From Rhizomicrobium palustre (GTDB lineage Bacteria > Pseudomonadota > Alphaproteobacteria > Micropepsales > Micropepsaceae), in NCBI RefSeq assembly GCF_011761565.1, contig NZ_JAASRM010000001.1, positions 372,139 through 436,138 of the forward strand: a stretch of 64,000 bases of DNA, given 5' to 3'. This document shows, in pieces, positions 21 to 52,627 of the stretch. Under the pieces are notes generated by a model. It was not told where the DNA came from and made no database searches. It saw only the letters and a list, made by a program, of their open reading frames with translations. Every line of letters starts with the position of its first letter. Position 1 is the stretch's first letter. Position numbers and translations under genes: made by a program.

Positions 21-56
21 TTGACGTCGGCTCCCAGACACCACAATATGTAGCCG
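21..56 (+). promoter_or_regulatory. nrdAB promoter with candidate NrdR box 1
   Basis: A TTGACG -35-like hexamer lies at 21-26 and a weak CAATAT -10-like hexamer at 44-49, 17 bases apart. This places transcription start near 56, just ahead of the riboswitch. The stretch 41-56 matches the NrdR box pattern (ACACWATATATWGTGT) at about 11 of 16 positions and overlaps the -10, as NrdR boxes usually do. The promoter and box are read by eye; NrdR control of nrd genes is known, but its use here is inferred. Confidence 0.5.
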
Positions 57-212
57 CTTCGGTCCGCTAGGTACAATATCTAGTGGCTAAGAGGGAAGCC
101 ATATGGCGCTGCCCCCGCAACTGTAAGCGGCGAGCTTGTTGACCGCCACTGGCCTGAAAAGGCTGGGAAGGCGATGCAGAGCTTTGACCCGCGAGCCAGG
201 AGACCTGCCGAG
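57..212 (+). promoter_or_regulatory. Cobalamin (AdoCbl) riboswitch upstream of nrdAB
   Basis: The conserved core of a B12 riboswitch is present in order: GGTCC near 61, GAGGGAA near 91-97, the CCCCGCAACTGTAAGCGG core at about 113-130, GCCACTGG near 145, GGGAAGGC near 165, and the B12 box AGCCAGGAGACCTGCC at 194-209. In the family, adenosylcobalamin binding turns off the downstream gene. Here that gene is class I ribonucleotide reductase, so with enough B12 the cell would use a B12-dependent class II enzyme encoded elsewhere (inference). A perfect 7-bp hairpin (259-275) and a stem flanking the nrdA start codon lie between the aptamer and the gene. Confidence 0.93.
71..86 (+). promoter_or_regulatory. 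Candidate NrdR box 2, inside a riboswitch hairpin
   Basis: This stretch matches the NrdR box consensus at about 12 of 16 positions. Its AATAT core lies 30 bases after the core of box 1, close to the three-helical-turn spacing typical of tandem NrdR boxes. The same bases form the loop and arm of a peripheral riboswitch hairpin (CTAG...CTAG), so the match may only reflect RNA structure. Confidence 0.4.
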
Positions 213-280
213 AGCAAACGACCCTGGGCGGGGTGCACCAATTGGGCCGCGGGAAGGTCAAGAACATGGTTCTTGGCATC

Positions 281-49550: not shown

Positions 49551-49632
49551 CAGGCCATTACGAAGCTGAGGTTTATTGATATCACGCACTGCGTCTGAAC
49601 GTATAAGACATAGCGCGTAGGCGGCGTTTTTC

Positions 49633-49660
49633 TTGACTTTTGCCGTAGATAGTGCATACT
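49633..49660 (+). promoter_or_regulatory. Sigma-70-like promoter of candidate RNA gene
   Basis: TTGACT (49633-49638) matches the -35 consensus at 5 of 6 bases. CATACT (49655-49660) matches the -10 at 4 of 6, with a 16-base spacer. The predicted start is near 49667, and no ORF follows on this strand. Confidence 0.55.
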
Positions 49661-49666
49661 AATACT

Positions 49667-49800
49667 CACCTAGCTCGCCGGTTCCCGGCGACGCAAAAGG
49701 TGCAAAGGACGGGCCCGCCCGCCGGGCCGGTCGACCCATTTGGCTGCGAGCCGGGGTCTTGATAGGGCGCTGCCTTTCGCGACAGCGCCCGCACCTTTTG
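49667..49800 (+). ncRNA. Candidate structured small RNA, unassigned family
   Basis: The transcript predicted from the upstream promoter would fold strongly. A 5' hairpin CGCCGG-TTC-CCGGCG (49676-49690) is followed by a closing helix CAAAAGGTGC (49694-49703) with GCACCTTTTG (49791-49800). This helix encloses three hairpins: GGCCCG/CGGGCC (49712-49728), GACCC-GGCT/AGCC-GGGTC (49733-49758) and GGGCGCTG/CAGCGCCC (49765-49790). The result is a four-way junction. The last hairpin followed by CCTTTTG could also act as a terminator. It does not fit tRNA, tmRNA, 4.5S, 6S or the riboswitch classes I know. Strand is inferred from the promoter; expression is not proven. Confidence 0.55.
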
Positions 49801-49978
49801 TAGGGGTATAGAAATCATTCCGACAGCTTAGCGCAGACGACACCGGGATTCCTATCCCTGGTTTCGCGTGTGATGCGCAAGATGGAGTTGGGATGTGCAC
49901 GCGGCTTTCCTCCCCCGCGTTGCGAGGGCGACAGAACTGGGAAATTGCGGAGAAAGCGGGGGCGGAAAGACGAGTGGC

Positions 49979-51961
49979 TTACGCCGCCGCGATGGCCGCT
50001 TCGGTCAGCATGGGCAGGTAGATGGTGAAGACCGTTCCCTGCCCCGCCAGCGAGCGGACATGGCAGCAACCCTGGTGGGAATCGACCACGCCATGCACCA
50101 CAACAAGCCCCAGGCCGGAACCTTTGCGCCGTCCTTTGGTGGTGAAGAAGGGCTCGAAGATGCGATCCATCACTTCGGCGGGAATGCCATGGCCGTTATC
50201 GGAGACCCGCACATAGCAATAGCGCCGCGTGGGATCGATGGAGCCCAAAATCCGCTCCTCCGGCGGCAGCGCATGGGCTTTCAACACCATGAGCTCGTTG
50301 TGCTCGGCCAGCCCCGCCGAAATCACGATACGGCCCGCTTCGCCTTCACAGGCATGTATGGCGTTAACGGCAAGGTTCTGCACAAGCTGCAAAAGCTGGG
50401 CGGCATTGCCATCCACCGGCAGGGCATCCTTGGGCAGCGCCAGCGATACCGTGGCGGGCGTCTCGCTGTCGCTCGGCACGACATCAAGGCTGGTGGAGAG
50501 AAGCTGGGTCAGATCCAGCGGCGTGCGCTCCACCGAGGCGGTCCGGGCAAAGCCAAGAATTTCATCGGTCAGCGACTTGCCGCGCTTGCACACGCCCAGA
50601 ATGCGCTCGGTGAGGTTGCGCTCCATGGCGTTGTCCGGCTCGGAGACGGCCGCTTTCTTTTCCAGAAGCCGCGCTTGGTTCTGAGCGAGCCCCAGGATCG
50701 CGCCGAGGATATTGTTGAAGTCATGCGCGATGCCCGCCGCCATCTGTCCCATGGCTTGCAGCTTGGCGCTTTCCTTTACCTGCTCTTCCAGGCGTTTGGC
50801 CTCCGCCAAAGCGGCGTTGCGGGCGGTGACATCTTCCACCCGCACCAGCACTTCACCGCCGGGCAAGCGGGCGCGATAAAGCTCGTAATCATGGCCCGCC
50901 AGGGTGATGGCACGATCATCCTTCTCGGCATGCAGAGGCTCGAGCACAAAAGGCAGAAGCGGCACATCACCGGTGCTTTGGGGCGAAATCGCGCGCGCCG
51001 CCGCATTGGCATATTCCACCGCACCATCCTGGCCGAGCACGAAAATGCCCTGGCTGACGCGATCCAGCCGCTCCAGCGTGCGCTGATTATAATCGAGGGC
51101 GAAGATCAGAGCGACAACCTGGGCCACCGATTTGGCGAAGGTAATCTCGCGCTCGCTCCAGGCATGGGGCGTGGGCGAGGAAATGATCAGCGAGGCCACC
51201 ACATCGCCGCGATAGGCCGCCGCCACATGCAGCACGGCGCGGATATTGTAGCGCGCGAAATACTCCCGCCCGGGCTGAAAATCCGGCGCGGTCATGACAT
51301 CCTCGGCAACGGAAACAAGGTCATTGCCGAGAAGGCTCGGATAGACATTCTCGATACAAGGGGGCGGTTCGGTGCCCTTGAGGTGACGGTTCACGCGCTG
51401 GTCATAGATATCGTGGAAGCGAAATCCCTGCCCGCCCTCTTCGATACGCCCTACGCAAGCCCTGGGATGGCCCATAACCCCGGCGGTCCATTCGGTAATG
51501 ATCTCCAGCCGCTGGTCCAGGGATTTGTCGGAGGAGAGCGCCAGCCTGGTGATCTTGCGCAGCGCCTCCTGATGGGCGGCAAGCTCGCGATCGCTGGCGG
51601 CAATTTCAGAGCGGGTCCCCAACATGCGCTGCAGCATGGCGGCGACCACCACGATCACCACCAGCCCGAACACGCGCGACGAAATGATTTCGGGCAGGGG
51701 CCTTTGCGCCTCCCCCCCCAGGAAAGGCGCCAGAATGGTGAGTGCGGCGCCAAGCCCAGCACTCCACCACATTGGGCGGGCACCAAACGCCGCCGCGGCG
51801 GCGATCACCAGCCCATAGGAAGCGCCATCGGCAGCGCCTCTCAGAGGCGTCATGTCGAGGAGGAATATGAAGCCAGAGGAGAGCAGGATTCCCACCCCCA
51901 CTAACCGGCTTTTGGTCTCGTTCTGCGGCCGCCACATTGCTTTGGTCCCGGCCCCCAACAT
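49979..51961 (-). CDS. Membrane sensor histidine kinase (GAF-PAS-HisKA-HATPase)
   Basis: A 660-aa kinase. The N-terminus has three to four membrane helices (about residues 20-110), then a GAF domain (about 140-300), a PAS domain (about 310-390), the H-box MAAGIAHDFNNILGAI with H413, N-box NLAVNAIHAC, and G-boxes in DNGHGIP and GSGLGLVVVHG. There is no receiver domain and no neighbouring response regulator. A start at Met9 is also possible, since GGGGCCGGGA precedes it. Signal unknown. Confidence 0.9.
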   Translation of the reverse strand: MLGAGTKAMWRPQNETKSRLVGVGILLSSGFIFLLDMTPLRGAADGASYGLVIAAAAAFGARPMWWSAGLGAALTILAPFLGGEAQRPLPEIISSRVFGLVVIVVVAAMLQRMLGTRSEIAASDRELAAHQEALRKITRLALSSDKSLDQRLEIITEWTAGVMGHPRACVGRIEEGGQGFRFHDIYDQRVNRHLKGTEPPPCIENVYPSLLGNDLVSVAEDVMTAPDFQPGREYFARYNIRAVLHVAAAYRGDVVASLIISSPTPHAWSEREITFAKSVAQVVALIFALDYNQRTLERLDRVSQGIFVLGQDGAVEYANAAARAISPQSTGDVPLLPFVLEPLHAEKDDRAITLAGHDYELYRARLPGGEVLVRVEDVTARNAALAEAKRLEEQVKESAKLQAMGQMAAGIAHDFNNILGAILGLAQNQARLLEKKAAVSEPDNAMERNLTERILGVCKRGKSLTDEILGFARTASVERTPLDLTQLLSTSLDVVPSDSETPATVSLALPKDALPVDGNAAQLLQLVQNLAVNAIHACEGEAGRIVISAGLAEHNELMVLKAHALPPEERILGSIDPTRRYCYVRVSDNGHGIPAEVMDRIFEPFFTTKGRRKGSGLGLVVVHGVVDSHQGCCHVRSLAGQGTVFTIYLPMLTEAAIAAA

Positions 51962-52261: not shown

Positions 52262-52627
52262 ATGGCTCTTTATGAGCATCTCCTGATCGCGCGCCAGGAC
52301 ATCAGCGCGCAGGCGGTTGACGCCCTTGCTACCCACCTCAAAACCATCGTCGAAGGCGAAGGCGGCAAGGTCGAGAAGCAGGAATATTGGGGTCTTCGTG
52401 GCCTCGCTTACCGCATCAAGAAGAACCGCAAGGGGCATTATGTGCTCCTCAACATCAACGCCCCTGCCAAGGCCGTGATCGAGCTGGAACGTCAGCTCAA
52501 GATCAACGAAGACGTCCTGCGCTTCCTGACCGTGAAGGTCGAAGCGTTCGAAGTGTCTTCGAACAAGGCGCGTCGTGACGACCGCGCCGACAAGCCGGAA
52601 GCCGAAAACACTGAGGAGCTGGTCTGA
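52262..52627 (+). CDS. rpsF: 30S ribosomal protein bS6
   Basis: A 121-aa protein with the bS6 ferredoxin-like fold: [12 protein letters not shown] at the start, [25 protein letters not shown] (residues about 37-61) and [10 protein letters not shown]. The C-terminal 25 residues are charged and disordered. Its stop and the rpsR start share one base. Confidence 0.96.

Follow-up and report, generated by a model that had tools for sequence, protein, structure and literature searches.

We believe that the plus strand of the 64,000-nucleotide stretch of Rhizomicrobium palustre DNA analysed here (the window) very probably carries a stand-alone gene for a small structured non-coding RNA, which judging from its sequence would have its own sigma-70-type promoter and which, as far as we have searched, belongs to part of one genus. 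The element looks like a new, uncatalogued family of structured RNA, and our analysis supports the preliminary description of this DNA in reading it as a structured RNA gene. What is new beyond that description is that two competing helices, A:B and B:C, are arranged around one middle strand. Most likely this is the gene of a trans-acting RNA and not a leader, because a promoter-like site is kept in front of it, no reading frame is conserved in it, its neighbours change and it persists in genomes where hemN was not found.

The locus and the predicted fold

The RNA is predicted to run from 49665 to 49801 on the plus strand (about 137 nt), its start being placed by promoter spacing and its end by the end of the modelled structure. 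It is preceded on the same strand by a -35-like hexamer TTGACT (49633-49638) and a -10-like hexamer CATACT (49655-49660) with a spacing of 16. The preliminary description had called this spacing good, and in the scan the pair is the sole promoter-like site in 49560-50000, with 0.2 expected in shuffled sequences. No ORF of 80 or more amino acids in the ORF list overlaps 49633-49800, and the stretch indeed lies between hemN upstream (TIGR00538, 445 bits) and a histidine (sensor) kinase gene downstream, both on the minus strand. The kinase gene is the first identified gene 3' of the element and the next identified gene on the plus strand is rpsF (ribosomal protein S6) at 52262; the preliminary description had likewise seen no gene on that strand that could be a riboswitch target.

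Between hemN and the RNA promoter there is also a TTGAY...CGCAA- or CTCAA-like site at 49576-49589 (TTGATATCACGCAC), which we take to resemble an FNR/FixK box. It probably serves hemN, and it could touch the RNA promoter. Comparable sites lie upstream of the element in the relatives L023, L024, L029, L030 (TTGACATCGCTCAA) and L031.

Folding of 49640-49800 gives a 5' hairpin and a closing helix around three further hairpins, with an energy of -77.9 kcal/mol where shuffled sequences average -61.5 (z -3.5; one of 200 shuffles was equally good); the folds of eight homologues have z values of -2.7 to -5.8. All parts are on the plus strand. Strand A (49667-49671) is the 5' arm of the outer helix P0 and pairs with 49698-49702 in strand B. 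The inner 5' hairpin of P0, predicted by folding, occupies 49673-49694, and its last pairs, at 49693-49694, overlap the start of P1. Strand B (49694-49703) is the 5' arm of the closing helix P1, and its positions 49698-49702 are at the same time the 3' arm of P0. The alignment then defines P2 (49708-49732), with bulged positions and a conserved sequence; P3 (49733-49758), with a conserved base and a variable far end that is longer in some relatives; and P4 (49765-49790), with a nearly invariant stem that is possibly the stem of a terminator. Strand C (49791-49800), placed by folding and duplex calculations, is the 3' arm of P1 and ends in a short run of T. No nucleotides separate P2 from P3, and zero or one separates P4 from P1.

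The five helices of the preliminary description are all found, although, contrary to its claim of perfect helices, some of the hairpins are imperfect: P2 and P3 contain bulges or internal loops and P4 has a mismatch near its loop. Its ten-pair closing helix does exist as a duplex (49694-49703 with 49791-49800), but in the full fold P1 has nine pairs, 49694 being taken there by the 5' hairpin, and the helix is one of two alternatives, since the 5' strand also pairs with the 5' arm of P1.

The earlier statement that the element matches no known RNA family holds as well. At the gathering score, Rfam 15 finds in the whole window just a cobalamin riboswitch at its start (43-226, plus strand, 115 bits). 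When E values up to 10 are admitted for the region, a single sR12 match, which we put down to chance, lies upstream of the element and none lies on it; at E values up to 1, none of the 20 homologue loci covered (of the 22 described below) has a match on the element. In the open-access literature covered by our search we came across no description of this RNA. 6S RNA (RF00013) is comparable as a stand-alone structured bacterial RNA gene; its fold, however, is one long hairpin opened by a bubble in the middle, which the element lacks. We rejected a diverged 6S RNA, given that the element has no RF00013 match and that the 6S RNA of this genome lies at another place (G000:C1:2270079-2270236, 48.4 bits).

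Homologues and compensatory changes

Of 61 related genomes searched with BLASTN, 10 gave a match, that of the window being one of them. A covariance model built from nine sequences extended this to 27 of 69 genomes of the genus at E 0.01 or better. We regard as strong homologues the 22 with E 1.4e-12 or better and treat the remaining five (E 0.004 to 0.0083) as chance; the true figure is at least 22 of 69, since genome searches score part of the first-look candidates. A second model, built from these 22 and run on 96 genomes of the order, recovered exactly this set, and no strong homologue appeared in the 27 order genomes that belong to other genera. Two overlapping draws from the class, of 289 and 385 genomes, yielded beyond the genus weak matches alone (E 6.4e-4 to 0.008), and these are too weak for us to accept as homologues outside the genus. 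Six weak matches were inspected (L085, L047, L052, L053, L054 and L055, of which L047 is from the genus of the window itself). Five resemble the element chiefly in a GC hairpin of the P4 kind, the GC-rich hairpins of L052 are different ones, and the conserved P2/P3 strand is seen in none of the six.

The exact P2/P3 pattern, run over 84,980 species genomes, matched 16 records, and the model confirmed 14: two MAG records of Rhizomicrobium together with R. electricum DSM 21034, ten Alphaproteobacteria MAGs and one Proteobacteria MAG. The pattern matches in Streptomyces and Micromonospora were discarded, the model match there spanning just 23-25 of 107 positions. With up to three mismatches allowed, the P2 strand is found in 16 of the 69 genus genomes, all within the 22, and the reversed P2 control pattern in none of the 69.

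P2, P3 and P4 are present in all 22 homologues and the 5' hairpin P0 in 20, while P1 is largely a feature of the 11 nearest relatives (L022-L032), which we call the hemN group; L033-L043 are the others. The predicted size of the RNA across species is about 120-195 nt. In some species (L022, L027) P3 is enlarged and its base unchanged. A T run of four or longer comes after P4 in 12 of the 22 C strands, and the predicted 3' end is placed tentatively.

The preliminary description had named covariation among homologues as a check, and here the helices prove to be kept with compensatory changes, for which reason we consider the structure to be more than a product of chance. The alignment of the 22 sequences has 659 cells, of which 95.9% are paired, a value that none of 500 shuffles reaches; because the alignments were fitted to the structure of the model, such counts lean towards that structure. 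Double-sided changes occur at 17 of 30 pairs where shuffles give 7.5, the covariation score reaches 0.286 compared with 0.121 for shuffles, and pairing falls to at most 47.6% once the partners are slid by one to three columns. Either half of the alignment gives the same result by itself (hemN group: 97.9% paired, 7 pairs with double changes; others: 93.6%, 11 pairs), and in neither does any of 500 shuffles match it on percentage paired, double changes or covariation score. For 'further pair types' both halves are unexceptional (294 of 500 shuffles for the hemN group, 28 of 500 for the others). G-U pairs make up 38 of the 659 cells and would be lost if the opposite strand were read; together with the promoter-like site they favour the plus strand.

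The stem of P4, with 1.94 bits per column, and that of P2, with 1.72, are better conserved in sequence than the loops, the junctions and the distal part of P3, for which the values are 0.5-1.4. In front of the RNA, TTGAC stands at the matching place of the -35-like hexamer in 20 of 22 homologues (in L023, L024 and L029 as the second-ranked pair of the promoter scan), with TTGAT in L042 and TCGAC in L041. GATACT, GATAGT or CATACT serves as -10-like hexamer in about half of the homologues, the rest matching worse. Spacing across the homologues is 16-18, all these sites being the best of many by consensus match, with no shuffled control.

Two helices around one strand

When the 5' fragments are folded to minimum energy, strand A pairs with strand B in 20 of the 22 (the exceptions are L024 and L026); some of these fragments are not unusually stable, with z values of -1.1 to -4.0 against mononucleotide shuffles. 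We compared the duplexes that each RNA forms from its own strands with duplexes of strands swapped between homologues, using unaligned strands and p values that ignore relatedness. Over all 22, own A:B and own B:C duplexes beat the swapped ones (p 0.0002 each), and own A:C and A:D pairs were no better than swapped. For B:C the test is significant in the hemN group alone (p 0.0002-0.0006; others p 0.16). For A:B it is significant in the others alone (p 0.005-0.012; hemN group p 0.45-0.50, where A:B hardly varies). Between the two single duplexes, B:C is the stronger in 8 of 11 RNAs of the hemN group and in 2 of the 11 others; the closing helix appears in the full-length minimum-energy folds of 9 of 11 and 1 of 11, respectively, and 76.6% of its cells are paired in the other 11. 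Based on the subgroup tests and these fold counts, an exchange among A, B and C is well supported in the hemN group, to which the window belongs, and P0 would be the main helix elsewhere. A wider outer helix that would join strand A to DNA lying beyond C is not significant over the 22 (p 0.20) and was dropped; strand B against this DNA gives p 0.08.

How would such an RNA work? In our model it would act in trans through its folded core. Strand B would pair with strand A, at the 5' side, during synthesis and would later be captured by strand C from the 3' side; the state of the 5' end, free or paired, would then depend on completion of the RNA or on a partner bound to the core. The strongest form of this idea, a free-standing two-state RNA in which B swaps its 5' and 3' partners and a trans-acting partner on the core exposes or hides the 5' end, is in our opinion improbable, though worth stating; it would amount to the logic of a riboswitch in an RNA to which no gene is attached. 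In the hemN group P2/P3 and P4/P1 could stack as the two arms of a four-way junction, and the stacked arms would present the near-invariant stems, most likely to a protein. We consider this presentation of a folded core a reasonable possibility that falls somewhat short of an even chance. Recognition of the core, perhaps by a protein, is favoured over a seed-type sRNA because the conserved letters are mainly in the stems of P4 and P2, with the caveat that any GC-rich stem would serve folding or termination.

A trans-acting antisense RNA, dependent on Hfq or independent of it, in which strand A, freed from B, would pair with ribosome-binding sites of mRNAs, is possible but in our judgement rather unlikely. 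Strand A lies at the predicted 5' end and is rich in C and U (CCUC, GCCC, CACCU), so that in our reading it resembles a Shine-Dalgarno complement, and Hfq is encoded in the genome. On the other hand, strand A differs between the subgroups and changes along with B, and conservation along the RNA is among the lowest at the junctions and in the far part of P3. Alphaproteobacterial trans-acting sRNAs such as AbcR1 and AbcR2 (PMC8844928) are similar in that the element, too, is a small RNA of an alphaproteobacterium and would probably act in trans; the element differs in having no Rfam family and in carrying its conserved letters mainly in stems. To some mechanism other than core presentation or antisense pairing we would likewise assign a minor share of the likelihood.

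Genomic neighbourhood and the remaining alternatives

The adjacency to hemN noted in the preliminary description extends to 13 of the 22 homologues (the hemN group with L034 and L041), but not to the other nine, which adjoin AsmA-like, Crp-like and other genes; this comparison covers flanks of about 1.5 kb with automatic choice of ORFs, and some of the neighbours could be named. A search of these nine genomes at E 1e-60 located hemN elsewhere in four and did not find it in the other five, three of which are 98-99% complete. A position beside hemN is accordingly not essential to the element. In L037 (629-1411) and L042 (708-1418) the RNA gene follows a gene for a Crp/FNR-type regulator (cNMP_binding, HTH_Crp_2). 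The 13 hemN proteins linked to the element fall on one side of a tree branch with 10 proteins from genomes that lack it on the other (support 94/96). These 10 come from 28 element-free genomes of the genus in which hemN was sought at E 1e-100, and none of the 10 genes has the element upstream. The simplest reading is inheritance in one lineage with a changing neighbourhood, independent of hemN.

One alternative is a cis-acting leader, that is, a riboswitch or attenuator with P0/P1 as its switch and P4 as its terminator. Mutually exclusive A:B and B:C helices beside a terminator-like hairpin are what such a leader would have, and riboswitches and attenuators (PMC10907184) share with the element two helices that compete for one strand; the element differs from them in having no consistent downstream gene. 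The first identified gene downstream in the window is on the other strand, neighbours differ between homologues, and a co-oriented gene directly downstream that is conserved across the homologues was not found within flanks of about 1.5 kb. Hence we regard a leader as very unlikely; orientation, distance and changing neighbours weigh against one for hemN, for the sensor kinase or for the S6 operon.

We also rejected a reading of P4 as a general terminator of the genus, as far as a strict pattern can show: its hairpin with the full nine-letter stem was recovered from 6 of 69 genomes and in every case lay at an element, though the pattern misses the other 16 elements, that of the window included, whose stem has a mismatch near the loop. 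For a looser form, the whole-genome basis is a BLASTN search of the window's own genome, where the best other place, a weaker look-alike of the P4 part, has 29 bases at 86% (E 0.011).

This look-alike, the GC-rich inverted repeats and the occurrence in more than one genomic context are what could be said for a DNA-level element (a repeat, a terminator cassette or a mobile end) whose RNA folding would be incidental. We find it hardly credible: each genome has one strong copy, a promoter-like site is kept upstream, the G-U cells would break on the other strand, the hemN-linked copies keep to one side of the hemN tree branch, and the exact P2/P3 pattern has no match in viral contigs.

A short protein gene starting at ATGAGG in strand B has next to no likelihood, for although an ATG occurs in strand B of 12 of the 22 homologues and a frame exceeding 40 codons is common to the sister species L022 and L027, such an ATG is absent from the window copy, indels are not multiples of three, and the other frames end or shift; no reading frame is conserved among the 22 predicted RNAs, the longest frames (5-60 amino acids) being different ones, and we therefore rejected a strand-B peptide.

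As a strongly covarying new RNA family from a soil lineage that has received little study, the element offers a ready test case. The named strain Rhizomicrobium electricum DSM 21034 carries it, and its single copy would allow a clean knock-out. If the exchange among strands A, B and C is true, it would mean conformational switching in a stand-alone RNA.
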